From Fragilaria crotonensis (taxonomy: Eukaryota; Bacillariophyta; Fragilariophyceae; Fragilariales; Fragilariaceae): a stretch of DNA of 56,125 nt. The DNA lies in contig JAKSYS010000401.1 in the NCBI GenBank assembly GCA_022925895.1, positions 1 to 56,125 of the forward strand, read 5' to 3'. The translations under genes were made by a program, and so were the position numbers. Positions 14,901-55,720 of the stretch are shown here, one piece after another (position 1 is the stretch's first letter; the number at the start of each line of letters is the position of its first letter). Under the pieces are notes generated by a model, which ran no database searches, had not been told where the DNA came from, and saw nothing but the letters and a program-made list of their open reading frames with translations.

Positions 14901-17234
14901 ATGTCATTCCGCGCATCTTCAACGCCGTCTGATGGCCGTCGTGGTGTGTACCAGGACGATCAGGGCTTCAATCAACTGAAGACCCCACCGTCGCGAGACG
15001 ATGTCAACGACTCTTGCGTTGAACAATTCAGATCTTACAGTCCTATCTCGCTCATCAGTGAAGACGATAGTACGAAACCCCCTCCTGTGCCGAAGAGGGA
15101 TAATTCCCCAGAAGAACTACGTCGAATGGTTTCATTCGGATCGCTCGAATTATCTCAACCTGACACCACCGTAACAGTTCACATTGATACGGATGACGAT
15201 TCATCTGCGCATCAAGAGAAGTCTGCGTGCTCCTCGGCAGAGACAGCGCATGCCTCAAACATGGAGCATTTTTCTTCCACAAGGACTTTTAAAGCATCAA
15301 ACGCCACCAAGAAATCTGGGACGCACGTTGTTGAAGACGTCGATGTTGGCATGTCCAGAAATGAACGTAAAGTGAACAGGTTGAAGAAACTGTTTCAAGT
15401 CCCAACAATTGCTGCAATAGCTGGTGAGCATGAACCTGATATTCAACATCAAACGAATGTTCATGGTGATGCAGTTGGCACCGTTTCTGAAACGGAGTAC
15501 AGATTGACACCCGGACTTGGCTATCGAGGTGCTGAAGATATCGATGTTGTCACCATTGACGCCAAATCGACGAAAAATCTACGTTTTCCGACTACTGTAG
15601 CAGCTGCCGGTGTGCAAGAACCCAATGTTCAACACCAGAAAAATGAATATGGCGATCTTCCTTGCTCCGTTCCTGAAATGGAGTACATTTTCAAACCCGA
15701 CCTTGAATGCCCGTCGCAAAGTCCACCACAAGTCACAGAGGCGACGATCCCAGCAATGGATCTAGACCTGCATGGCGAGAACCTCGCTGAATCGGGATTG
15801 CGAGTTGCGAACGTGGAAGAGTTATTTAAAGACGAGAGCGTTTGCGAAGAGCAGTTTCGCACTCCGGTTCACAAAAAATGGTGCTTCTTGGCCGTATTCG
15901 TGGTAATTCTATTGGGAATAGGCATACCGGTGTATTTGACGCTTGTCAAGGGTGAAAATAGTAGTCCCGGCCCTACTACTATCCCGACAAATGCAAGCTC
16001 CCCCACGTCAAGCCCATCAGGAACTCCCACTGTATCCCCAACTCGTGATGAAGATTTTGATAGCATTGAGGAAATTCTCACGAGATTCTTCGGTAATTCC
16101 TCAACCGATCAACAATCCCCTCAATCAAAAGCTCTAGCTTGGATGGTGAACAACGACACAAGCAACTTGACAGCCGATACCAGTCACGAGATGGAGATCA
16201 AAGACAGGTACATCTTGGTTGTTTTATACTTCGCCATGCGTGGTGATTATTGGTTCCATCATTCGGACTTCCTTTCTTCGAAACATCATTGCTTGTGGAA
16301 TATCAGCGCCCCAGCTGCTGGTTTCCTTGGAATCACTTGCGATGTTTTGAAGCAGGTAATCCGGTTGGATCTGATGAGGAACGGCCTGAACGGGATGATT
16401 CCTAGTGAAATCAGATTCTTGACAAAACTAGAGGGATTAAATCTCACAGGCAACAACATTTCAGGCAATCTCCCTTCGTCGCTTGATCAACTAACAAAGC
16501 TGCAAGGTGTTGATTGTAGTCACAATAATTTATTCGGGACGATACCTCCGGAGCTCTTCCAGATCTCAACACTCCAAGTTGTTAAGCTTGGTAACAATTC
16601 ACTAAACGGAACCCTACCTGATTTCGATGACGAGAAGGGAAATGTTTCGGATGTGACTAATTCGCTGGCGGGAACACTCTCGGAGGGACTCGGTAATCTG
16701 AGTTCACCCGGTCTCGTAGATCTTGGGAACAAGTCGCGTTCTGGGACGATTCCCAAGTCCATAGGCTCACACAAAGCGTTGGTGACCTTGATTCTTGACA
16801 ACAATAAGCTCAAGGGCAGTCTCCCTTCAACCCTAGGGAGCCTAAGCAAAATGGAAGTGTTCTCCGCCAACAATAATGGATTAAGTGGCACAATACCGAC
16901 AGAAATGGGACGCCTAACGAACTTGACGAGATTGGAATTGATGTCCAACGAATTATATGGTCAAATCCCGTCGGAGCTAGGCCTCCTCGGTGAGCTCAAG
17001 ATTCTGAATTTGGCTGATAATAAATTCAATGGAACAGTTCCAACTCAGCTTGGCGATTTGTCTCGATTGCAGACCGTCCATCTCGAAAATAATTCATTGG
17101 GTGGCGACATGGAGAGCTTTTGCAAGAATAAGGCTTCGTTTTTGGGGGTAGACTGTGATGGTGAAATTAAATGCACATGCTGCACTTTTTGCTGTAACTC
17201 TTCGGACGTGTGCACAGATAGGTCTAATGCATAG
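14901..17234 (+). CDS. Single-pass membrane LRR protein, copy 1 (LRR1)
   Basis: A 777-residue protein from an ATG at 14901. Residues 1-325 are hydrophilic and probably disordered. A hydrophobic segment at about 327-348 (LAVFVVILLGIGIPVYLTL) is the only membrane span. A Ser/Thr/Pro linker (TIPTNASSPTSSPSGTPT) leads to a cap region (about 395-480) and then plant-type leucine-rich repeats of about 24 residues (pattern L..L.L..N.L.G.IP) from about residue 485 to 745. The C-terminus is a cysteine cluster (CTCCTFCCNSSDVC). There is no signal peptide, so it should be a type II protein with the LRR outside, possibly a surface binding or recognition protein (inference). There is no kinase domain. One repeat looks damaged near residues 575-610. 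The gene is intact. Confidence 0.85.
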   Translation: MSFRASSTPSDGRRGVYQDDQGFNQLKTPPSRDDVNDSCVEQFRSYSPISLISEDDSTKPPPVPKRDNSPEELRRMVSFGSLELSQPDTTVTVHIDTDDDSSAHQEKSACSSAETAHASNMEHFSSTRTFKASNATKKSGTHVVEDVDVGMSRNERKVNRLKKLFQVPTIAAIAGEHEPDIQHQTNVHGDAVGTVSETEYRLTPGLGYRGAEDIDVVTIDAKSTKNLRFPTTVAAAGVQEPNVQHQKNEYGDLPCSVPEMEYIFKPDLECPSQSPPQVTEATIPAMDLDLHGENLAESGLRVANVEELFKDESVCEEQFRTPVHKKWCFLAVFVVILLGIGIPVYLTLVKGENSSPGPTTIPTNASSPTSSPSGTPTVSPTRDEDFDSIEEILTRFFGNSSTDQQSPQSKALAWMVNNDTSNLTADTSHEMEIKDRYILVVLYFAMRGDYWFHHSDFLSSKHHCLWNISAPAAGFLGITCDVLKQVIRLDLMRNGLNGMIPSEIRFLTKLEGLNLTGNNISGNLPSSLDQLTKLQGVDCSHNNLFGTIPPELFQISTLQVVKLGNNSLNGTLPDFDDEKGNVSDVTNSLAGTLSEGLGNLSSPGLVDLGNKSRSGTIPKSIGSHKALVTLILDNNKLKGSLPSTLGSLSKMEVFSANNNGLSGTIPTEMGRLTNLTRLELMSNELYGQIPSELGLLGELKILNLADNKFNGTVPTQLGDLSRLQTVHLENNSLGGDMESFCKNKASFLGVDCDGEIKCTCCTFCCNSSDVCTDRSNA

Positions 17235-29458: not shown

Positions 29459-30179
29459 TGAATAAATTTAAACGATTAGTACGCTATTGACTTAGAAGCT
29501 GGGTTGGAAAGGGCACAATCGATTCAAGTTGATGGATCGATGTGTGCAAAGTTTCCCACTCCAGCTTAGATCGGCGATTTCACGTTTGGGTTCCGTTCAA
29601 CCGTGACTCCGGTTGTCTCCTTATCCGGTACGAATTGTATTCATGCAAATAGCCGATAGTCCCGACCGTTGCGCCCATGTAATTGGGCTACTGTCGTGAT
29701 CCTGGTTTAGTAGCGCTGGAGGCACAGTACCGTGCTCTCATACCAGACCATGTAATCATGTACCAGTACGATTCAATAATGTTCCGGATCATTTTTGTAA
29801 AATGAATCTGCCCTTGACTCGCACAAAGCTCTCTCTGTTAACTTTTTTAAGAGTGTATTCCTATTAATTGTGCATTGTTCATTAAGATTTAAAACATTGA
29901 GAACTACTCTAGTAGGTTGTGAGTATACTACAGCACACGTTTGAGAACGCAAACAGTTCCTATTCTTGACCTTCTCGTTGTTGTATTAACGTTTCGTCTC
30001 GCGTGCACGGACGACTCGAGAATACGAGTGGTTCATTGCTTGGCATACTATCTTGTAGGAGAGCTACCGGTATTCTGTCGGAGTTGATCTGACTTGACGG
30101 TCTTGGAGACCAATCGCATCAACGCTTCAACTCACATGCACTCTCTTTCTATTCCAGTAATGCTTAAAACTTGTTTCGG
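29459..30179 (+). promoter_or_regulatory. Intergenic region upstream of LRR2
   Basis: No ORF of note. It joins the 5' side of the minus-strand DIRS-like element to the LRR2 promoter; the boundary is not visible. AT-rich blocks around 29780-29900 and 29980 could be promoter DNA. It shows no similarity to the LRR1 upstream region. Confidence 0.4.
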
Positions 30180-32150
30180 ATGGAGAATCGTGGCAGTGCC
30201 GATAACGTTGACGACGTTGCGAAGGATTCTTCACGTGCTGGAGGAATCCAGGAGAGTGACTTTGCTGAAGAATTCTCATCGGATTTGCCAAGCACGGCCA
30301 TGCTGTCGTCGGCACCTTCTGGTTCCTCTCCCTACGCTTCGTTATCGTCGCCATCCGCAGCAAAGGTTGATGATCGTGACGTTGCTCATGGTGCTGGTCG
30401 TGTCGGTGATACCAAGAAATTGGAACATGCACCACCGACTGACCCAAGAATGCAATTACCCGCCGCCGGGTTTGGAATGGTAGACTCGATGGGAAGACCT
30501 CCAGTTGTTTATGCAAGCAATTCCGACGTTGGTCCTGGAGCATTTCCAGTACGATCAGGTCGGAACACTGCAACACGTCGGACAGTCAGGTCTCCAATTC
30601 GTTCGTATGATTCCCCTAGAGAGTTTACGAATGAAGAATCCAAACAGGATGATGGAGTGCGGAACTCCGCAGTTGCTGGAATTGGTGTGTATGCTGTGGA
30701 AGCACAACGGGTACCAGACGGAAGCGAGGATGGAACGGTGTTGGTGGCCGAGGCCCAATACGTCAGAACGAAATGGTATCAACGTCGTTGGATTTTTGTG
30801 GGTCTTGCCTTGCTTGCGTGCGGTTTTGCCGCTGCGGTGGTAGTGATGGTTGTACTTTTAGTTCGACAACCATCTGCGGCTGCCAGTTCTTCATTGACGC
30901 CCCCTCCCACCGTCCAAACAACAGGCGCGCCCTCCATTCCGGAACTAACTGCTAGTCCAGTTCCCACTCCCACTGTATCCCCAACTCGTGATGAAGATAG
31001 CATTGAGGAAATTCTCTCGATTCGCTTCGGTAATTCCTCAACCGATCAACAATCCCCTCAATCAAAAGCTCGAGCTTGGATGAAGAACAACGACACATGG
31101 GTATTGAATGCCGACATCAGTGCCACGATGGAGATCGAAGAAAGGTACATCCTGGTTGTGTTGTATTTCGCCATGCAAGGTAGTGCCTGGTTCAATCAAT
31201 CGGACTTCCTTTCTTCGAAACATCATTGCTTGTGGAATACCAGCGCCCCAGCTGCTGGTTTCCTTGGAATCACTTGCGATGCTTTGAAGCAGGTAATCCG
31301 GTTGGATCTGATGAGGAACGGCCTGAACGGGACGATTCCTAGTGAAATCAGATTCTTGACAAAACTAGAGGGATTAAATCTCACAGGCAACAACATTTCA
31401 GGCAATCTCCCTTCGTCGCTTGATCAACTAACAAAGCTGCAAGGTGTTGATTGTAGTCACAATAATTTATTCGGGACGATACCTCCGGAGCTCTTCCAGA
31501 TCTCAACACTCCAAGTTGTTAAGCTTGGTAACAATTCACTAAACGGAACCCTACCTGATTTCGATGACAAGAAGGGAAATGTTTCGGATGTCTTCGCGAA
31601 TAATTCGCTGGCGGGAACACCCTCGGAGGGACTCGGTAATCGGAACAAGTCGCGTTCTGGGACGATTCCCAAGTCCATAGGCTCACACAAAGCGTTGGTG
31701 ACCTTGATTCTTGACAACAATGAGCTCAAGGGCAGTCTCCCTTCAAGCCTAGGGAGCCTAAGCAAAATGGAAGTGTTCTCCGCCAACAATAATGAATTAA
31801 GTGGCACAATACCGACAGAAATGGGACGCCTTACGAACTTGACGAGATTGGAATTGATGTCCAACGAATTATATGGTGAAATCCCGTCGGAGCTAGGCCT
31901 CCTCGGTGAGCTCAAGATTCTGAATTTGGCTGATAATAAATTCAATGGAACAGTTCCAACTCAGCTTGGCGATTTGTCTCGATTGCAGACCGTCCATCTC
32001 GAAAATAATTCATTGGGTGGCGACATGGAGAGCTTTTGCAAGAATAAGGCTTCGTTTTTGGGGGCAGACTGTGATGGTGAAATTACATGCACATGCTGCA
32101 CTTATTGCTGTAACGCTTCGGACGTGTGCACAAATCTGTCTCCGGCATAG
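30180..32150 (+). CDS. Single-pass membrane LRR protein, copy 2 (LRR2)
   Basis: The first ATG of the frame is at 30180 (MENRGSADNVDD), giving 656 residues. Residues 1-200 are hydrophilic and unrelated to the N-terminus of LRR1. The membrane segment lies at about 203-228 (WIFVGLALLACGFAAAVVVM). A Ser/Thr/Pro linker follows, and from PTPTVSPTRDED (about residue 263) onward the protein is nearly identical to LRR1 through the cap, the leucine-rich repeats and the cysteine cluster (CTCCTYCCNASDVC). One repeat is short (EGLGN then NKSRSGT). It is an intact gene, probably type II with an external LRR. The abrupt switch from unrelated to near-identical sequence shows exon or segment swapping, or gene conversion. 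Confidence 0.85.
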   Translation: MENRGSADNVDDVAKDSSRAGGIQESDFAEEFSSDLPSTAMLSSAPSGSSPYASLSSPSAAKVDDRDVAHGAGRVGDTKKLEHAPPTDPRMQLPAAGFGMVDSMGRPPVVYASNSDVGPGAFPVRSGRNTATRRTVRSPIRSYDSPREFTNEESKQDDGVRNSAVAGIGVYAVEAQRVPDGSEDGTVLVAEAQYVRTKWYQRRWIFVGLALLACGFAAAVVVMVVLLVRQPSAAASSSLTPPPTVQTTGAPSIPELTASPVPTPTVSPTRDEDSIEEILSIRFGNSSTDQQSPQSKARAWMKNNDTWVLNADISATMEIEERYILVVLYFAMQGSAWFNQSDFLSSKHHCLWNTSAPAAGFLGITCDALKQVIRLDLMRNGLNGTIPSEIRFLTKLEGLNLTGNNISGNLPSSLDQLTKLQGVDCSHNNLFGTIPPELFQISTLQVVKLGNNSLNGTLPDFDDKKGNVSDVFANNSLAGTPSEGLGNRNKSRSGTIPKSIGSHKALVTLILDNNELKGSLPSSLGSLSKMEVFSANNNELSGTIPTEMGRLTNLTRLELMSNELYGEIPSELGLLGELKILNLADNKFNGTVPTQLGDLSRLQTVHLENNSLGGDMESFCKNKASFLGADCDGEITCTCCTYCCNASDVCTNLSPA

Positions 32151-42440: not shown

Positions 42441-43788
42441 GTGAATTCGTTTTCGAGTAGTAGATTGTATGGCATACATGCCTCCAACAATGGAGCGAAT
42501 TTGATGAAATCATTGTCGACGACCATGGTGCCAACAGCTATAAAGAAGAAGACAACTGGAAAGAGATTGGAGCCTCTTAAGTTTGTGGGTGGTTCCAAGT
42601 TTATGAAGGAATTGCAGAGGACCGTATTTTTTGCAGCCTATGAATCAGTCGTATTCTCTTCTGGGAATGTTTTACAGACAAAGAACAGAAGGAGATGCTC
42701 CGTCGCAGCATTCTTGGATCTGAAGACCCTGATGACATTTCACTCCCAGAGCAAATGGTTCTCGGTGTCAACCAGTTTGCACATCTATATGATGATGTGC
42801 CATTGGAAAATAACGATGACAGAAATGCAACTTCAGCACTCGGGGGGGCAGGTACTAATGAGGATTTGATTCTCGGCAGGTCGTCACATCGCAATGAATA
42901 CGACAAGAGGCTCAAGGATTGTTTCTTTCCACAAAAAAGTTCGGGAGGTAAGCTTCACATTTATGCAAATAAGCCAGACGGAATCACCAAATCATTGTTG
43001 ATTGCCAAGAACATGTCAAATCCAGTTGACGTTTCTGTACAAACAATCATGCGAGCTGCAAAGGAGGTTCGAAATGGGAGGAAGGCACTTGCATGTGTCA
43101 AAGAAGCCGAAAGTGACTATAAAGATGGAACACTTCCATCTGGGCGGACCATTTCTGATTATCATCGGTATGTCCGGGAACGGATGTTTGTGAAACTGAA
43201 GGGCACCATTGGTGCTGATTGTGATGATGCTGACGCCGATGATGATGTTATCGGATCAGAGGATGTTGAGAAACAACAAGACGATAATGGCAATCGATTA
43301 ATCAATCCTGAAGAGATGCCAGAAGATTATTATTTCTCCGGCATGATTGCTTTCTTCTTGTGGGGTCATATCATCGAAGACCCCAATCAAGAGTGCTACC
43401 GGTCAAAACAATTCCAAATTGGCGATAGTGCACCAGAGGAAAAAGGACTTCAGGCAGGAGGCAGATAAAGAAAGAGACCGCTAGGGCCGAATCAAAGCAG
43501 CGAGACATGGGAGCAGCAACCCCGGTTCGCCATTTAAGCGAGGTGCTACACTGTCGCAACAAATTGAAATTGCCAAGTTGCAGGCCGCAAGGGCTATCGA
43601 AGAGAGGCGTACCTCGACCATGATTATACGATTGCCTTAATGAGCATTCAGAAGGATATTGACCATCATATGGCTCTAGCCAAGCTCTGGGATGCGAAGG
43701 ATCGGAACGATCCTATCTTTTCCAAGATCAACGACCTCTTTGATTCGAAACAAAAGTTGAGTGTGACATTTGCTGAAAAGCAGATCAT
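42441..43788 (+). pseudogene. Unrecognised broken gene next to the third LRR copy
   Basis: The main frame (42695-43468, 257 codons, continuing a frame that is open from about 42645) encodes an acidic, hydrophilic protein: ISLPEQMVLGVNQFAHLYDD, KPDGITKSLLIAKNMSNPVD, TISDYHRYVRERMFVKLKG, then an Asp-rich run and EDYYFSGMIAFFLWGHI. An earlier frame (42441-42700, KKTTGKRLEPLKFVGGSKF) and later pieces (ATLSQQIEIAKLQAARAIEE; IQKDIDHHMALAKLWDAKD) look like parts of the same protein, separated by stops. I do not recognise the family. It is cut off at about 43788, where LRR sequence begins. It may be a mobile-element accessory gene or a captured host gene. Confidence 0.45.
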
Positions 43789-44928
43789 CCTCAACCGATC
43801 AACAATCCCCTCAATCAAAAGCCCTAGCTTGGATGTTGAACAACGACACATGGGTATTGAAAGCCGACATCAGTGCCACGATGGAGATCAAAGAAAGGTA
43901 CATCCTGGTTGTGTTATATTTCGCCTTGCATGGTAGTGCCTGGTTCAATCAATCGGAATTCCTTTCTTCGGGACATCATTGCTCGTGGCATGTGAAAGCT
44001 GTAGCACCATCTGATGGTTTCCTCGGAAGCACTTGCAATCCTTCCAACCAAACAATGCGTTTGGATCTGATGGGGAACGGCCTAAACGGGACTATTCCTC
44101 ATGAAATCCAATATTTAACAGGACTTGTGGGATTGAATTTCTCAGACAACATTTCAGGCAACATCCCTTCGTCGCTTGGCCAACTCAATAAACTTCAAGA
44201 TATTGATTGTAGTGACAATGTGCTATCTGGGACGGTACCTGCGGAGCTCTTCCAGATCGCAATACTTCACTTTGTCGATTTTGGTTCGAATTCACTGAAC
44301 GGAACCCTGCCTGAAATCGACAATAATGTGCAAGAAATTCGTTCGTTTGCCTTCGCAAATAATACGCTGTCAGGAACGCTCCCGAAGGGACTCCTTGATC
44401 TGAGTTCACTCAGCCTCCTTGATCTTGGGAACAATTTGCTTACCGGGACGATCCCCAAGTCCACGGGCTCACACAAAGCGTTGGTGACCTTGATTCTTGG
44501 CAACAATGAACTAAAGGGCGGCCTCCCTTCATCCCTAGGGAGCCTAAGCAAAATGGAAGTGTTGTCCGCCAACAATAATGGATTGAATGGCACAATACCG
44601 ACAGAAATGGGAAACCTAAAGAACTTGGTGATATTGGAGTTGATGTCCAACGATTTCTCTGGTGAAATCCCGTCGGAGCTAGGCCTCCTCGGTGACCTCA
44701 AGATTCTGAATTTGGCTGATAATGAGTTCGAAGGGAAAGTTCCAACTCAGCTTGGCGATTTGTCTCGATTGCAGACTGTCCATCTCCAAAAGAATTTATT
44801 GGGTCGCGACATGGGAAGCTTTTGCAAGGAGTATAAGGGTTCGTTTTGGGGCAGACTGTGGTGGTGAAATCGCATGCACATGCTGCACTTATTGCTGTAA
44901 CTCTGCGGGCGCGTGCAAAGAGGTATAA
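43788..44928 (+). pseudogene. Third LRR copy (LRR3), truncated and fused to foreign sequence
   Basis: It begins abruptly at cctcaaccgatcaacaatcc, equivalent to 16109 in LRR1, with no ATG, no N-terminal domain and no membrane segment. From there it follows the LRR1/LRR2 cap and repeats but is clearly more diverged (HHCSWHVKAVAPSDGFLG; NVLSGTVPAELFQ). A frameshift near 44850 gives a premature stop at 44867. The original C-terminus, with the cysteine cluster CTCCTYCCNSAGACKEV, is in another frame ending at 44928. The preceding unknown ORF is not in frame with it. Confidence 0.8.
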
Positions 44929-44960: not shown

Positions 44961-46572
44961 TTAGTCATCTTTGGAAGCCTTTTTCTTCTTCTCTGGCTTT
45001 TTGCCCTGTATTTTGTCGGCGATGTATGCATACTGCACAATAAGCCCGATTACGAGTACTGGCACCCCCACGCAAGCCTTATCAAAGTATGATGAACCTT
45101 GCTCCATTCCAAAACGTTCGACCAACAAATTATGCAACTGCGCCAGAAGGAAAGACGAGCCGATGAAGTCAAAGAGCGGAACAACTATCCTTCGTGCGTA
45201 CGACACGGGTTGGACCAGTACGAACTTCTGCGCAATATAAACGGTGCCTTTGGACGGCATCATGGCGTGGAGGGTATCGTAATCAAGGTCCATTCCATTG
45301 TCAATGGTGTTGTGGTGCACAATCGCCATGCCCTGTTTGGGGCGAATTTTGATGGGTTCCTTGGCGTTCGGATAAACAACTGAAGGCTCCTCGCCATCGC
45401 TCAGGAATATCGTAATTGTGGCCATAGCAACGGTATTTGGAAAAACATCATAGTGAGGCTTACGGTGTGATCCAGCCTCATACTTGTCAACGATGAAGTC
45501 GCTGAAATGAATCGCCGGGAATCCGGTTACTTGTTCGATTCTTTCTTCAATTGCTTTGCTGGCTGGAAGCTGCCAAAGTCCCTGCCAAAGCGTAGCACGT
45601 TGTACGTTGTGTAGCTTTTCTGTATTGTAAGAGAGATCTAGCAAAGAATCACCAGCAATTGGTTTCATCTTCTTGTCAGCTTTCTTGATCAACATTGCAC
45701 ACTCCTCAGCAATCAACAAATTATGAATCAAATACAAAACAGGATTTCTGGGCATGACATCTTCAAAAAATGGACGATCTCCACCAGCGTAAAGGCGAAT
45801 ACGATCTGGCATTCCATTGTTAACAACGTCCTCCTGTCTTGTCTCAGCAGTGACTGTCGCGGTTGTCAAGACATTGGCCGAGTTGTATGAGATCATCACA
45901 ACAGGGATATCGATCCCATCAGCAGCGTCTCCTTCAGGTGACGGGAGGCGATAAATCTCGTCTGGATGCTTCTTGTCAATATTGACCACAATCAATGCTG
46001 CAGCTCCACTTTTCTTGGCAAGCTGCGCCATTTGCCATCCCTCCAGGTCTCCTTGATTCGTCATGACAACCATATTTCCATGCACTTCATCCGCATTGTC
46101 CAATAACGCAACAGGTTCCATCGTCTCCCTATTAATTCCTGACACTGGGTCAGCTAAAACTGGTCGAGTTTCTACCTCCAACAAGGCTGCTTGTGCGGTT
46201 TGAGGCCCAAAATGTGCCACTGAACAGTCTAATGCACTAATATCCAACGAGAAAACGTTGTGAGGAGACTGGTCACACACTGCCAGTCACATTTATGCAT
46301 CAAGCTATGCACTACCTTCACAGTTTCAAGAACACGCACAGAGGAATAGCAAGCGAAATAGCAAAACCATCACCTTACCTAATGACAGCAGAGTGTCCCC
46401 ATTCCATCACTGCCGCTTCGGCCTCGGTACGACGAGGAAACTCGCGATACACCAAATCTTGGAGGTTCTTTTCCTTTCTGCTTGCTACCAGCGTTATAGA
46501 TGATAACAGAAGAGTAACTGATAGCAGGAACAACCTGAAATGTTGCTTCGATGATGCAATCGTCGTCGTCAT
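44961..46572 (-). CDS. Prolyl 4-hydroxylase-like protein with PA domain and C-terminal membrane anchor
   Basis: The main exon (46280-44961, 439 codons) holds, from its N-terminus, a protease-associated-like domain (about 60-145), then the 2-oxoglutarate/Fe(II) dioxygenase core with the iron ligands in HRKPHYDVF (H276, D278) and DTLHAMMPSKGTVYIAQK (H338). The C-terminus has a membrane segment (about 403-420, VGVPVLVIGLIVQYAYI) and a lysine-rich tail KPEKKKKASKDD. An upstream exon (46572 to about 46380, MTTTIASSKQHFRLFLLSV) encodes a signal peptide. The intron lies between about 46381 and 46265 (a good donor AG|GTAAGG). The acceptor that restores frame is unclear (…GACCAG|TCT needs an alternative donor), so exact junctions are uncertain. 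It should hydroxylate prolines of secreted proteins in the ER (family knowledge). Confidence 0.82.
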
Positions 46573-46916
46573 GGTCGTTTGATGCCACCAACGAAAGTAG
46601 ACTACAAGTACTGGTCGTACTTATTAGAAGAGAAGTGTTTAAGATTTGCTTTCTTGCGGCTAACAGGCTAAGATAGCACGAGCGCCACCTGGCATCCTGT
46701 CACCTGATGGATGTATAGACGGAGCTAATTTTTTACAACAGTCTCAATCTCAAGTCCGAAGTCCCAACCCGCGGTACAGTACAAGTACGAGTACCTGCTA
46801 ATACAGTATATAATCTCTACTCGGAGTACTTGTAGTTCGACGTCAGACGTCTGTCGTCAGACGTCACCAAACGAAAGCCACAGCAACTGTTTCACAAGAA
46901 TACGAAAAGAGAGACG
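46573..46916. promoter_or_regulatory. Divergent promoter with paired ACGTCA boxes
   Basis: This is the shared upstream region of the hydroxylase (minus) and the oxidoreductase (plus). ACGTCA stands at 46840-46845 and 46861-46866, with a further GACGTC between them. The second box is 51 bases before the plus-strand ATG. TGACGT/ACGTCA is the core of bZIP-bound CRE elements, including those linked to CO2/cAMP responses in diatoms (established for other genes). A role here is inferred. Confidence 0.45.
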
Positions 46917-47783
46917 ATGATGCGCTATAGTCTCGCTCGCCTCAACGGTGTTTCGCACGCCCGTCATCGCTGTCTATCGACGCTCGTGATCCCTGTCGAG
47001 CTTATCTCGGACACCTTATGACCAAACGGGTTCATTGGGAAGAGGCACCTGAACAAGGCCATGACCCAGGTCTTGGCAAATCCACTTCCCAACGCGCCCC
47101 GTCCAGTCGTTTTTTCGGTGATTCGAGTCCCCTTCTTTCTCGAGCCGCAGTACGACGAGAAAAAGCCATTTATTGAAACAAATCGTGAACGTCTTATTCA
47201 AAAGTGGGGCGGGAAGCAGGGATGGGAACGCCAGAAGAATGCTCACGATTTGAAAGGCCGCGGTCTCGAAGCTGGCATCCCGCACTTTAATTTGGATCGA
47301 TTGACCAGCAACACCATGGCGTCGCATCGATTAATTCAACACATTGGCAAGACTCACGGCCTTGCTGCGAGTGAGGCGATTTACGACTTGTTAAACCAAT
47401 ACTATTTTGTCGATGGATACTCTCTCAATGATCGGCCGCGACTTGCCAAGACTGTTGCCGATCAACTCGTCAAGATACTGCCGAATAGTGCACCAAAGGA
47501 GGAGGAAATTCTGGAGTTTTTGAATGGACAACAGGGTCGAAGGGAAATTGAACAGGCCCTCGCCGCCTTGCGGAAGCTTGGAGTTCACGGGATCCCCAAG
47601 TTCATCATTGAAGGGACAACGGTAGTCGATGGTGCTGCTCGATCTGACGTCTTTGTAAACATCTTCCGAGAAATCGAACGTCGAGGCGAAGTTCAATCTG
47701 GGCCCGTTTTTGCGGATATATTAGGCTTGCGGCAAGAAGTTATCGAGCAAGGTAGTCATCGCCCAGAAGATATGGCGGCCTAG
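46917..47783 (+). CDS. DsbA/FrnE-family oxidoreductase with in-frame TGA at the catalytic cysteine (probable selenoprotein)
   Basis: From ATG 46917, 288 residues with a single in-frame TGA at codon 35 (47019-47021). Residues 1-25 (MMRYSLARLNGVSHARHRCL) look like an organelle-targeting peptide. Around the TGA the reading is VELISDTL-TGA-PNGFIGKRHL. FrnE-like proteins have SDTxCPWC-F-x-GKRHL here, so the TGA sits on the first active-site cysteine, and the second position is glycine. The rest is a complete DsbA-type thioredoxin fold with the helical insert and a cis-proline loop (GVHGIPKF, Pro227). The frame is open on both sides without other damage. With the hairpin at 47852-47915, this suggests selenocysteine insertion. 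Otherwise it is a nonsense mutant, or the protein starts at the internal ATG 47061 and lacks its active site. Confidence 0.72.
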
Positions 47784-47851
47784 TCTGTCGTTGTGAGGTT
47801 GTGAGGCACACACCCGCGTTTCCTCATTAGACCATTTAGCAAAGCGTGCAC

Positions 47852-47915
47852 GCATGCCGCCAGAATGATAATCAAGAGCGGACGTTGTTCTTGATTTGAT
47901 ATTGGACTGTCATGC
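47852..47915 (+). ncRNA. SECIS-like hairpin in the 3' UTR
   Basis: It begins 69 bases after the stop codon. The lower stem pairs GCATG (47852-47856) with CATGC (47911-47915) and CCAG (47860-47863, approximate) with TTGG (47902-47905). The core has ATGA (47865-47868) opposite TGAT (47897-47900), the UGA/GA arrangement of the SECIS quartet. The upper stem pairs AATCAAGAGC (47870-47879) with GTTCTTGATT (47887-47896), with one G-U pair, under a 7-base loop GGACGTT. The unpaired AA usual at the apex is missing, which weakens the call. Confidence 0.5.
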
Positions 47916-47920
47916 AACCA

Positions 47921-48074
47921 CTGTTTGCAGCTGCGTCAAGAGAGGATAGCGTATAGAAGATACCCATTCACCTTGAGTAGTTTCATTCGTATTCACGCTG
48001 TTTGCAGCTGCGTCAAGAGAGGATAGCATATAGAAGATACCCATTCACCTTGAGTAGTTTCATTCGTATTCACG
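47921..48074. repeat. 77-bp tandem duplication
   Basis: Two head-to-tail copies (47921-47997 and 47998-48074) differ at one base in the part compared (gcgtata against gcatata). Non-coding, beginning 6 bases after the SECIS-like hairpin. Confidence 0.9.
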
Positions 48075-48341
48075 CTAAGCCAAGTGGATTGTTGAATATA
48101 TTCCACGAAATTGATAGTGCAGAGTGCACTCGAAAAGCGTAATCGCAGTTCTGGTAATTGTACTTGGAGTTTTGAGTACAAGTAGATCTCGGCCCCATTT
48201 ATCATGTTGCAAATAGCAAGTTCCAGGTACAGTATTACCATAGCCATTTGGAGCAAATAGGCCTGCGGGAGAAGCCAATCATCAATCACAAAATGCTTAC
48301 TAAGTTAGTCGTGCAGTTAACTATCGAAAGCCACCTTATCT
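48075..48341. other. Intergenic, nothing recognised
   Basis: Short frames only. Probably the 3' flank of the dehydrogenase gene. Confidence 0.5.
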
Positions 48342-49112
48342 TCAAGCTGAAATGGGTTCCGCGGGCTGAGGAGTCGCCATCATGACCTCCATTGCCTTGG
48401 CATCCGCTTGCCATCCAGTGTGAAGCTGGATGGCCATATCATCTGGAAACACGTCTTCTTTCCCAGTTAAAAGGGCATCCACAATAGCGGTCGCAACGGC
48501 GGATGGTGGAGTCTTGTCAAATGGAAGACCGTCTGCCATGTCTGTGTCTATCGGACCTGGATAGACACCAATCACCAGTGTTTCATGTCCAAAGTCGCGA
48601 CGTTGTGCTTGCGTCAATGAATGAATGGCGGCCTTTGAGGCAGAGTAGGTACCAGCAATGTTGAAATTGATAAAGCTGGCAATCGAGGCGACGTTGACAA
48701 CGGCAGTATTGGTCTTTCCCTTGAGGGTCTTTGCAAAGCTTTGGTTGATTCTCAGAGGTCCAAAATAGTTTACTTCGATCTCCTTGACTGCCTCTTCCAG
48801 AGCGTCGTTGTCAAGTGCCGAGGCAGCATATCCCGCATATCCAGCATTGTTGATGAGAAGATTAACATCTGGGTAGAGGTCAGCGAGGCTCGCAATTTGG
48901 TCCTTGTCTGCAACATCGAGGGAAACAGCAACAACTCGTCCGCCGGCTGTCTGAACGAGTTCATCCAGCTGACTTGCGTCGCGAGCCGTGGCGTACACCT
49001 TCTTGGCGCCGTTGGCAAGCAGGGCATCCACAATGGCGCGGCCGATGCCATTCTTCTTGTTCGTTCCAGTCACGAATGCGACGGAGTCGTTGATTTGGAA
49101 TGTAGAAGTCAT
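48342..49112 (-). CDS. Classical short-chain dehydrogenase/reductase
   Basis: 256 residues, intron-less, from the ATG at 49112 (MTSTFQINDS). It has the Rossmann nucleotide-binding motif TGTNKKNGIG (residues 15-24), NNAG (88-91), the catalytic serine in VNVASIAS (S143) and the YxxxK pair in YSASKAA (Tyr156, Lys160), followed by YPGPIDTDM. ARD after the second strand (residues 43-45) suggests NADP preference. Length and motif spacing are normal for a classical SDR. The substrate cannot be told. There is no targeting peptide, so it is probably cytosolic. Confidence 0.9.
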   Translation of the reverse strand: MTSTFQINDSVAFVTGTNKKNGIGRAIVDALLANGAKKVYATARDASQLDELVQTAGGRVVAVSLDVADKDQIASLADLYPDVNLLINNAGYAGYAASALDNDALEEAVKEIEVNYFGPLRINQSFAKTLKGKTNTAVVNVASIASFINFNIAGTYSASKAAIHSLTQAQRRDFGHETLVIGVYPGPIDTDMADGLPFDKTPPSAVATAIVDALLTGKEDVFPDDMAIQLHTGWQADAKAMEVMMATPQPAEPISA

Positions 49113-51643: not shown

Positions 51644-54600
51644 CCATCGGTGGCGGCCTATCAATCCACCATCCGGAGGGCAAGGTCGCTACCATCAAAT
51701 CATCGTATCGTCTCGTCCCTCCAGCATTCAGAACCACATTTTGCCCGTTGCGAACTCGATTCGCATGCTGACACTTGCGCTCTTGGGAGCAATTTCACTC
51801 TTTTATCGTACACAGGCCGCGAATGCGATGTATCCCCTTACAACGCATCGCACGAACCAGAACGAAATGTCCCCATTGTCAGCGCAGGAACCTCGTACAC
51901 TTGCCAAACCTCGGGCGTTACCTACATCCTTGTCATCCACGAAGCACTATGGTTTGGTGACAAACTTCAACACTCCTTACTGAATCCCAACCAATTGCGA
52001 TTTGCCGGCATGGAAGTTCACGACAACCCGTTTGCCCGCGAACATCGTATTTCCATTGACCATCCCGACCTGCACATACCTCTTGACATTACAGGCACCA
52101 CTATCTTCCTTGAATCGTCCACACCCACTCAACACGAGCTGGATACTTGTCCACATATACATCTAACACTCGACTCCGATTGGAATCCACACACCGTGCA
52201 ACTGGCGTCAGCGCAGCGTGCGGAGGCGGAAATGAGCGGCGCGAGTGATATTGAACCTGGACTTGCACAAATATCAGCGGTGTTTTGTTGCAACCAAATG
52301 GCGGAAGCGATGAACGAACAACGACACATAAAGGCCACCACCGTCGATGTGCCAGGAACGAAAACTTTTATATCTAACAAGCGTCACACACAGATAACAA
52401 GCGAACAATTAAGCGAGCGATGGAATATCGGACTATCGCAAGCGAAGAACACGTTAAAAGTAACAACACAGCGCGGCGTTCGATCAGCGATCATGCCACT
52501 GAGCAGACGATATCGAACGGACAGAATGTATAATCAGCGAAAATTGCGAAATCAAAAGTTCTACACTGACACCTTGTTTGGAAAATGCAAATCGATCACC
52601 AACAACACATGTGCACAAATATTTGCGAACGAAGCATATTTCGTGAAAGCGTATCCGATGGAAAAGAAATCGATGGCTGGGCTTGCTCTGCGACAATTTA
52701 TAAGAGACTATGGCGTGCCGGAACAACTGACATCTGACGGCGCAGCAGAGCAAACTGGTCCCAAAACAGAGTTCATGAAGAACGTAAGGAAGTATCAAAT
52801 CGACCACCATCTAAGCGAACCACACAGGCCACAGCAAAACAGGGCAGAGTCCGTAATTCGGGAAGTGAAGAAGCGTTGGTTCAGGCAGATGACTAAAAGA
52901 AAAGTCCCGAAAAGGCTCTGGGATTATGGTATTGTATGGGTGTGCGAAATCATGTCGCTGACATCGAACTCAACCTTTGCGTTAGACGGGAGAACACCAA
53001 CCGAACAAATCACGGGCGAGACTCCAGACATATCGGAATACCTGGACTTTACTTTCTATGATTGGGTATGGTATAAAGACAACGCTGGGGTTGGGGACAA
53101 CTCCTGTGGGCGATGGCTTGGCGTTTCGCACAGAGTGGGAAATCTAATGTCATACTGGATACTAACCGAGAACGGGAGAGTCATATCGAGAACAACTGTA
53201 CAGCGAGTCACCAACTTGGAGCAAGGCACAGCAGAAGTCAAAGAGCGAATGTCGAGTTTTAATGAGCGCGTGTCGACTGTCCTCAACGATGCCAACCATA
53301 TCATACAAGAAAATGATGGCGATAGGCAGCTTCAGGATTGGGACAACTACACACTTGAAGACGACCCGGACTTTGCGGAAGAGTTCAACAACATGGTCTC
53401 GGATGATAAAATCCCTGAAGCCGATGACACGTTCACCCCAGATCTATTTGACGACACATACTTAAACAAGGAAGTGGCGATCGCGAGAGGTGCCGGAACA
53501 GAAGAGGATGTACAATATGGTAAAGTGACCAAGCGACTGCGCGATGCGGAAGGCCGACCGATTGGAACGGCACATGAGAATCCTTTGCTAGATACGCGAG
53601 AATACGATGTGGAATTCATGGACGGACACAATGAATCACTGTCTGCCAATTTAATTGCTCAACACTTGTACTCACAAATTGACGAAGAAGGAAACAGACA
53701 TGTTATGCTCGACGACATTACAGATCACAGGCGAAAAGAAAGCGCAGTTGACAAGAGCGATGAGTTCACGACAATGTCGAATGGCGTAAAGCGTCGGAGA
53801 GAAACAACTCAGGGTTGGCAGTTACTGTGCCAATGGAGAGACGGAAGCACGAATTGGGTTGCATTAAAGGACATGAAACAATCGTACCCAGTCCAAGTTG
53901 CAGAATATGCAATAGCCAATCGAATCGACGATGAACCAGCGTTTGCGTGGTGGGTCAAACATGTGATCAGAAAGCGCGACCGAATCCTATCTAAGATCAA
54001 ATCCAAATACTGGCAAAGGACACACAAATACGGAATCAGGATACCCAAAACCGTGGAGCAAGCGTTAGCGTTTGATAAACAGAACGGCAACACTCTATGG
54101 TGGGATGCGATATGTAAAGAAATGAAGAACGTCAGGCCAGCTTTTGAGAAATGGGAGCAACCCGAGCGAGAAATGCTACCCGGATACCAGAAGATTAAGT
54201 GCCATTTCATTTTCGACGTTAAGATGGGAGAGAACTTCCGTAGAAAAGCGAGGTTGGTGGCGAACGGTAACCAGACAGAGACCCCAACATCATTGACGTA
54301 CTCGTCCGTGGTATCACGAGACTCCGTAAGAATTGCTTTGCTTGTTGCTTCACTTAATAACTTACAATTGTTGGCTTGCGATATCCAAAATGCATACCTC
54401 ACAGCAGACTGCAGAGAGAAAATTTACATCACAGCTGGTCCAGAATTTGGATCGGAAGCAGGCTCCACAATGATCATTCGGAAAGCGTTATACGGTCTGA
54501 AATCAAGTGGAGCAGCGTTCAGGGCTCACTTAGCGGAGACCCTCTACGAACTGAACTACCAACCAACGAAAGGAGATCCTGACGTATGGATAAGGCCGGC

Positions 54601-55720
54601 GACTAAAGCGGATGGCTTCGAATACTATGAAATGGTATTGGTATATGTTGACGACATCCTTTGCATATCGGACGATCCGAAGGCCACTATGAAAGGAATC
54701 CAAGCGACGTTCAAACTCAAGGACGACCGGATCGAAAAGCCGGAGATGTACTTGGGAGCGACGTTGACCGAAAAGAACCTGAACGGAACCATGTGCTGGA
54801 CAATGTCATCCGAGCAATATGTGAAGGCTGCAATCGCGAACGTTGAAGCGAAATTGGACGAAAGTGGGCAAAGATTACCATCAAGGTGCTCGTCGCCATT
54901 ACAAGCAGGCTATCGACCGGAGCTAGATGTTTCAGCGGAGCTCAAAATCGATGGAATAAGATATTACCAAGAATTGATTGGCGTTTTGAGATGGGCGATT
55001 GAGCTGGGAAGGATTGATATCACAATGGAAGTGTCTATGTTGTCTACTCACCTTGCTATGCCCCGCGAAGGACACTTACAGCAGGCGTATCATGTGTTCG
55101 GATATTTGAAAGCGAAACCAAAGAAGACACTTGCTTTCGACCCAACTCACCCAGACATTGATGAAGCGAGATTCGAAAAGTGCGACTGGCATGATTTTTA
55201 TAGAGGGGCGGCAGAATCGATTCCAGGGGACATGCCGGACCCCAGAGGTAATGTTGTTTCCACTCATTGTTTTGTTGACGCTGACCACGCAGGTAACAGA
55301 GTGACCAGAAGGTCGCAGACAGGGATTTTATTGTTTGTGAACCGAGCCCCAATCATATGGTATAGTAAGCGACAAAACACCGTCGAAACGTCGACGTTCG
55401 GGAGCGAATTTGTGGCGATGAGAATTGCAGTCGAGTTGGTTGAAGCTTTACGCTACAAGTTGCGGATGTTCGGGATACCGATCGAAGGATCCACGAACGT
55501 ATTCTGCGACAACGAAGCGGTCACCAAGAACGCGATTAACCCGGAATCTACTCTCAAGAAGAAGCATAACGCAATTGCATACCACCGAACGCGTGAAGCT
55601 GTGGCTGCGGGAACTATCCGAGTTACCAAAGAAGATGGAAAGACGAACTTGGCGGACGTATTGACGAAACCGTTGTCGCAGATGACGAAAGATTTTTTAT
55701 GCGATCGGTTCATGTATTGA
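51644..55720 (+). CDS. Copia Pol polyprotein, intact
   Basis: It is in the same frame as the second part of gag, separated only by TGA 51641-51643. The first ATG is far inside the protease region, so it is probably made as a Gag-Pol fusion. Residue numbers below count from 51650. Protease: CELDSHADTCALGSNF near 40 (DSHAD in place of DSGA). Integrase: FYTDTLFGK (about 306), LTSDGAAEQTG (about 362), QNRAESVIREVK (about 398). A chromodomain-like segment lies at about 718-780 (WQLLCQWRDGSTNWVALKDM, then VAEYA and EPAFAWWV). RT: LVYVDDILCISDD near 998. RNase H: HCFVDADHAGNRVTRRSQTG, STFGSEFVAM, CDNEAVTKNA, LADVLTKPLS. All catalytic residues are present; this copy may be functional. Confidence 0.93.
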   Translation, partial: PSVAAYQSTIRRARSLPSNHRIVSSLQHSEPHFARCELDSHADTCALGSNFTLLSYTGRECDVSPYNASHEPERNVPIVSAGTSYTCQTSGVTYILVIHEALWFGDKLQHSLLNPNQLRFAGMEVHDNPFAREHRISIDHPDLHIPLDITGTTIFLESSTPTQHELDTCPHIHLTLDSDWNPHTVQLASAQRAEAEMSGASDIEPGLAQISAVFCCNQMAEAMNEQRHIKATTVDVPGTKTFISNKRHTQITSEQLSERWNIGLSQAKNTLKVTTQRGVRSAIMPLSRRYRTDRMYNQRKLRNQKFYTDTLFGKCKSITNNTCAQIFANEAYFVKAYPMEKKSMAGLALRQFIRDYGVPEQLTSDGAAEQTGPKTEFMKNVRKYQIDHHLSEPHRPQQNRAESVIREVKKRWFRQMTKRKVPKRLWDYGIVWVCEIMSLTSNSTFALDGRTPTEQITGETPDISEYLDFTFYDWVWYKDNAGVGDNSCGRWLGVSHRVGNLMSYWILTENGRVISRTTVQRVTNLEQGTAEVKERMSSFNERVSTVLNDANHIIQENDGDRQLQDWDNYTLEDDPDFAEEFNNMVSDDKIPEADDTFTPDLFDDTYLNKEVAIARGAGTEEDVQYGKVTKRLRDAEGRPIGTAHENPLLDTREYDVEFMDGHNESLSANLIAQHLYSQIDEEGNRHVMLDDITDHRRKESAVDKSDEFTTMSNGVKRRRETTQGWQLLCQWRDGSTNWVALKDMKQSYPVQVAEYAIANRIDDEPAFAWWVKHVIRKRDRILSKIKSKYWQRTHKYGIRIPKTVEQALAFDKQNGNTLWWDAICKEMKNVRPAFEKWEQPEREMLPGYQKIKCHFIFDVKMGENFRRKARLVANGNQTETPTSLTYSSVVSRDSVRIALLVASLNNLQLLACDIQNAYLTADCREKIYITAGPEFGSEAGSTMIIRKALYGLKSSGAAFRAHLAETLYELNYQPTKGDPDVWIRPATKADGFEYYEMVLVYVDDILCISDDPKATMKGIQATFKLKDDRIEKPEMYLGATLTEKNLNGTMCWTMSSEQYVKAAIANVEAKLDESGQRLPSRCSSPLQAGYRPELDVSAELKIDGIRYYQELIGVLRWAIELGRIDITMEVSMLSTHLAMPREGHLQQAYHVFGYLKAKPKKTLAFDPTHPDIDEARFEKCDWHDFYRGAAESIPGDMPDPRGNVVSTHCFVDADHAGNRVTRRSQTGILLFVNRAPIIWYSKRQNTVETSTFGSEFVAMRIAVELVEALRYKLRMFGIPIEGSTNVFCDNEAVTKNAINPESTLKKKHNAIAYHRTREAVAAGTIRVTKEDGKTNLADVLTKPLSQMTKDFLCDRFMY

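Follow-up and report, generated by a model that had tools for sequence, protein, structure and literature searches.

Is the TGA codon that interrupts a long reading frame of Fragilaria crotonensis a site of selenocysteine (Sec) insertion, or does it mark a damaged or wrongly delimited gene? In the stretch of 56,125 nucleotides that we analysed (the window), translation from ATG 46917 to TAG 47783 meets a single internal stop, TGA 47019-47021, at residue 35, and no other in 288 codons. This agrees with the initial annotation, made from the letters alone, which had described the frame as open but for this codon and undamaged on both sides of it, and had proposed a FrnE/DsbA-like enzyme in which Sec replaces the catalytic cysteine. 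At the level of sequence the proposal is supported, in addition to the frame itself, by TGA at the same codon in six homologues (deduced for these relatives) and Cys in another, by eight selenoprotein genes and eEFSec in the genome, and by a hairpin architecture, core and geometry, that the gene shares with them. The gene is very probably a selenoprotein of FrnE/DsbA type, with Sec at residue 35 directed by a 3' stem-loop, and insertion of Sec at this TGA is almost certain. The features of the locus are collected in Table 1.

Table 1. Predicted features of the Sec-containing gene and its surroundings, in window positions.
Feature	Position	Strand	Remarks
Predicted Sec-containing FrnE/DsbA-like gene	46917..47783	+	288 codons and TAG, read as a single exon; translated with TGA as U
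N-terminal extension, residues 1-23	46917..46985	+	four Arg, no Asp or Glu; pLDDT below 50 over residues 1-19
Predicted Sec codon TGA (U35)	47019..47021	+	just ahead of active-site helix 36-54
U-P-N-G active-site motif	47019..47030	+	PNG invariant in 5/5 aligned sequences
ORF as conventional finders call it	47061..47783	+	without the active site
Predicted SECIS	47850..47916	+	helix I - GA - ATGAT - helix II - TGA - TAT - helix I'; GAATGA at 47863

The read-through protein matches the Pfam family DSBA (PF01323) with 34.3 bits (cut-off 25.6, E 2.7e-08), and this gene gives the one PF01323 match in the genome, whose assembly comprises 881 contigs and 62.1 Mb. A search of NCBIfam with the same protein gave no match. 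The best meaningful relative of solved structure is FrnE (PDB 5cp1 and 5cnw; E about 3e-06, or 0.00073 with an alignment profile), from Deinococcus radiodurans, which differs in having a CPWC dithiol, with Cys and not Sec. Two PDB rows that ranked at the top, both designer PPR proteins, were set aside as repeat artefacts. In the alignment with FrnE, the first Cys of CPWC stands opposite residue 35 (SDIACPWCYIGKRR in 5cp1 against SDTL-U-PNGFIGKRH), exactly where the TGA had been placed from the letters alone. In the AlphaFold2 model of the read-through protein (mean pLDDT 88.3, pTM 0.86) the order of secondary structure is consistent with a DSBA thioredoxin domain, and residue 35 follows strand 23-31 and precedes helix 36-54, in the slot that holds the nucleophile in thioredoxin folds. 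Around the Sec site the confidence of the model dips to a mean of 64 (residues 31-40), and the Sec column carries a letter in only 19/53 aligned sequences. The computed mass is 32.5 kDa with Cys in place of Sec, and smaller if a presequence is cleaved. A mitochondrial presequence is suggested for residues 1-23 because these contain four Arg and no acidic residue; we lean slightly towards this reading, by which the product is perhaps mitochondrial. N-terminal extensions are present in homologues P0009 and P0081 too.

Protein-database searches gave 479 and 613 matches (the latter at E <= 0.001), of which 120 each were listed; these make 151 distinct sequences, all of which were examined. Named close homologues include sequences of Cylindrotheca, Nitzschia, Mayamaea, Entomoneis and Thalassiosira, which we take to be diatoms. 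No relatives of the protein were found in the viral contig or genome contig collections searched, and a region-limited protein search returned the query alone. The active-site motif is missing in frame from 147 of the 151 listed homologues, because of the TGA codon or of an adjacent intron. Taken alone this is weak evidence, since unrelated residues before GYIGKK in several models suggest an intron, and some of the shortened models may, judging from their sequences, owe their truncation to an intron behind the PN codons and not to TGA.

The comparison that the initial annotation had called for, whether homologues carry Cys or TGA at the Sec codon, could be made for ten of the 151 listed homologues. 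TGA was deduced in six (P0018, P0025, P0029, P0043, P0071 and P0081), W stands at the position in three (P0007, P0009 and P0044; the codon being TGG, or TGA called as Trp) and Cys in one (P0010), which provides a Sec/Cys pair. The deduction uses protein letters that are out of frame at the site. Five models start with MTQW, MTQR or VTQR and P0081 contains LMTKWY; ATG-ACC-CAA-TGG read one base later is A-TGA-CCC-AAT-GG, that is, stop-Pro-Asn-Gly (xTGA-CCC-AAT-GG). This decoding was done by hand, with codons picked among synonyms. In P0081 the letters before LMTKWY are also compatible with SDTL in the shifted frame. The word xT[QK][WR] occurs nine times in the 37,371 positions of the 151 proteins, five times at position 1 and once in P0081. 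The occurrences in P0027, P0050 and P0094 were taken as background; the STQR of P0050 would not yield TGA if it overlapped the Sec site, and P0050 was left out of the count. Related algal genes thus seem, by this deduction, to read TGA as Sec at the active site as well.

A recent nonsense mutation or a base error, leaving a pseudogene or a faulty sequence, could formally create the same codon, as TGA is one base away from TGC, TGT and TGG. This explanation is very improbable, however: the frame holds no further stop, the six homologues share the deduced TGA and include two that are transcriptome-derived by their source names (P0025 and P0071), the PNG beside the TGA is conserved, and a SECIS-like element lies at the usual place downstream. 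We give equally little credit to a protein that begins at Met 47061 (residue 49), has no active site and is preceded by a 5' UTR. The plain ORF list does start the gene there and loses the active site, as had been foreseen for simple ORF finders, the database entries of the close homologues P0001 and P0002 begin at the equivalent methionine, and most listed database models begin there or nearby. However, such a start would remove strand 23-31 and most of helix 36-54 of the predicted model, and the protein sequence of residues 24-34 (VIPVELISDTL) is conserved in the four homologues whose frame includes the site, where the residues ahead of and at the Sec position read VELVSDTLW, IELVSDTLW, VELISDTLC and IELVSDTMW.

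The stretch SDT-L/M-x-PNG keeps its S, D, T, P, N and G unchanged in all five in-frame sequences, the queried gene included. The U-P-N-G centre is present as the initial annotation gave it, although it is not a CPWC with a changed second residue, but a conserved site of its own, x-P-N-G. Neither is it a local oddity, for PNG is kept in 4/4 other homologues reaching the site in frame; what had gone unnoticed is that neither a resolving Cys nor another conserved one is left. The only Cys of the gene is residue 19, within the N-terminal extension, and the domain columns outside the Sec site have Cys in at most 5/53 aligned sequences (1/15 in a smaller alignment). Neither of the dithiol patterns CxxC and UxxC was found, Gly taking the place of the resolving Cys. 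A UxxC selenenylsulfide is impossible because the only Cys is residue 19 and the domain has no conserved Cys, and the lack of a resolving Cys, and of any other conserved Cys, makes function as a CxxC disulfide enzyme impossible as well.

The genome encodes other selenoproteins. Family and pattern searches found eight canonical genes: SelT (CVGUG), GPX (NVASQUG), SelM (CSGUK), TXNRD (GCUG-stop), SelU (RRPGUFFCRE) and three MsrA with GUFW, from 15 PMSR matches. We take these to be the usual textbook Sec sites of the families. The GCUG-stop pattern had five matches, and only L025 was judged, by sequence, to be a genuine thioredoxin reductase end. Each of the three MsrA genes with Sec in this genome (L034, L035 and L038) has GUFW and a GAATGAC element. 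Domain III of eEFSec (PF21208) was detected with 97.1 bits. SepSecS had no match in the genome, nor did a tRNA-Sec pattern; RF01852 (tRNA-Sec) gave 10 weak matches with 53 of 5073 candidates scored, and the eight of these that were examined are tRNAs of the ordinary kind, for Leu, Ser, Gly and Arg. That tRNA-Sec and SepSecS are missing could be due to introns, gaps in the assembly, sequence divergence or the limited share of candidates that was scored. Decoding of the TGA as some other residue (Trp, for example), or its read-through without a SECIS, is the least probable reading of all: the three homologues listed with W would fit it, but a Cys homologue exists, the genome has eEFSec, TGA ends other genes of the window (e.g. 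SDR and a retroelement polyprotein) and so is not a general sense codon, and with Trp in place of the nucleophile no thiol chemistry would be left.

The hairpin with an ATGA/TGAT core that had been noticed behind the stop was confirmed; it spans about 47850-47916, at a distance of at least 66 nt from the stop. Its fold has an MFE of -23.1 kcal/mol (z -3.45; 2/200 shuffles equally stable) and pairs as CCA-GA-ATGAT, ten helix II pairs and TGA-TAT-TGG, with a short helix I. GAATGAC lies 24-153 nt past the stop in 8/8 control selenoprotein genes of the genome and GAATGAT at 80 nt in the TGA gene, where 0.05 core words per 160 nt are expected from the window's own frequency. The elements have a common architecture of helix I, GA, ATGAN, helix II, [TC]GA, usually three bases, and helix I', and the hairpin shares its core and loop geometry with those of the other selenoprotein genes. 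By a strict rule (GAATGA, and three or more contiguous pairs in each of helices I and II), which only 5/8 control elements pass, about 0.003 elements per kb are expected in first-order Markov sequence; in the window the hairpin is alone on the + strand, with one other element on the - strand. The word GAATGA is absent from the 600 nt past the stop in three of the four Cys paralogues examined (SelT, SelM and GPX L017). The GPX-Cys gene L014 has three copies past its stop, none within a hairpin, and the core word alone is thus no proof.

Six control elements from five unrelated families (two MsrA) were aligned, their segments padded with N to equal length; GPX, which has an unusually short inner stem and whose 3' end was placed by eye, and MsrA_b, which has a weak helix I, were left out. 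In this alignment 91.7% of cells are paired; sliding one side by 1-3 columns lowers this to 30.3-45.0%, a comparison that favours the unslid version since register and structure were chosen from the same six sequences. Changes on both sides are seen at 11/12 pairs. As the elements come from five unrelated families, their pairing reflects shared constraint. A covariance model (R1) was built from these six, with the TGA gene excluded. With filters off, the highest-ranking R1 match in the window, searched on both strands, was 47857-47910 (11.8 bits; E 1.9 over 56 kb), the next matches having 11.2 bits, and on 1.5 kb around the gene the hairpin had E 0.052; with default filters R1 gave no match in the window. 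Scores as modest as this are common for elements that the model has not seen, since the left-out GPX reached 13.8 bits and MsrA_b was not listed. The decayed elements of the SelT and SelM Cys paralogues scored above the hairpin (22.5 and 17.7 bits), which is explained by the presence of their siblings in the training set of R1. The core of these copies is broken (CAATGA for GAATGA; ATGG for ATGA), and they record, as a fossil, that Sec was lost after duplication. Both of these Cys paralogues (L013 and L021, on contigs C173 and C548) share their contigs with the Sec genes.

The classical SECIS rule, as given in the available part of PMC2375036, has AA or CC 10-13 nt after the quartet. At this distance both are missing in the hairpin and in 4/8 controls (SelT, TXNRD, MsrA_b and MsrA_c). 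No Rfam family matched 46900-49000 at E <= 10, and RF00031 (SECIS_1) had no match in the genome with 133 of 1211 candidates scored, the eight controls being missed likewise.

If Sec is inserted, the enzyme is likely to work by monoselenol chemistry, a proposal based on the replacement of the resolving Cys by Gly and on the lack of any further conserved Cys in the domain. The mRNA would be decoded by the eEFSec-dependent machinery of the organism, under the direction of the stem-loop at about 47850-47916; UGA 47019-47021 would thereby be read as Sec at residue 35 and translation would continue to UAG 47783. The product would be a FrnE/DsbA-type enzyme of thioredoxin fold that acts as a monoselenol. 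Its selenolate would attack a disulfide, a peroxide or another electrophile, and an external thiol would resolve the intermediate, perhaps in mitochondria; glutathione is a tentative candidate for this thiol. A DsbA with the first cysteine only is still capable of disulfide exchange, according to work cited in the available part of PMC2874816.

Sec-DsbA/FrnE is a known algal family, and the diatom gene is probably a monoselenol variant of it. The available text of PMC2874816, PMC3473315 and PMC7539508 reports Sec-DsbA in bacteria, green algae and marine invertebrates; PMC7539508 counts DSBA among the Sec proteins with the widest distribution in algae, and a diatom Sec-DsbA may already be in the database of its authors. 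The proteins of algae and marine invertebrates have in common with the diatom gene the DsbA family and Sec in place of the upstream catalytic Cys. In Ciona and amphioxus the part with the Sec codon was once annotated as UTR, and it is likewise cut off in the diatom gene. The Sec-DsbA of Figure 11 in PMC2874816 have U(or C)XXC, whereas the diatom gene has U-P-N-G and no resolving Cys. The Sec-FrnE of Mamiellophyceae and M. viride (PMC6627142) are also of FrnE type, with Sec, and from aquatic algae, but belong to the green lineage; in the accessible part of that paper Sec-FrnE is found in no other Archaeplastida genome. DsbA 3 of the Global Ocean Sampling, as outlined in PMC2398784, has a DSBA domain, Sec and no Cys at the second position (UxxV), but is prokaryotic and has Val, not Gly. 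A thioredoxin-like, or thioredoxin-fold, selenoprotein of T. pseudonana (PMC2375036), compared by its description only, is likewise from a diatom and combines the fold with Sec, and may be of the same family. No description of the U-P-N-G form was found in the literature on selenoproteins of diatoms and algae and on DsbA, as far as its accessible text extends.

It is conceivable, though we hold it somewhat below even chances, that diatoms share a large and almost wholly mis-annotated family of single-selenol FrnE proteins without conserved Cys in the domain, together with a SECIS form of their own (GA-ATGAY, a 2/3-nt internal loop, often no apical AA) that standard models miss. If this lineage form is real, diatom selenoproteomes are therefore undercounted. 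The eight elements in this genome, of which the Rfam model found none, are a start for a lineage-specific SECIS model, and correct gene models would ease estimates of selenium demand in diatoms. A thioredoxin-fold selenoprotein without a partner cysteine would also be a clean system for the function of a lone selenol.

The gene is flanked on the - strand by a gene with a PA domain and a sub-threshold match to 2OG-Fe(II) oxygenase (44961-46280) and by a short-chain dehydrogenase (48342-49112); a link of these genes to selenium is not evident. Elsewhere in the window there are three similar leucine-rich-repeat ORFs, two recognised by Pfam (14901-17234 and 30171-32150) and one by sequence (43770-44867), which are probably a local duplication. 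A long polyprotein with the Pfam reverse transcriptase RVT_2 occupies 51650-55720, presumably a Ty1/copia-like retroelement. Just behind the predicted SECIS, at 47921-48076, a 77-base unit stands in two tandem copies that match at 98%.
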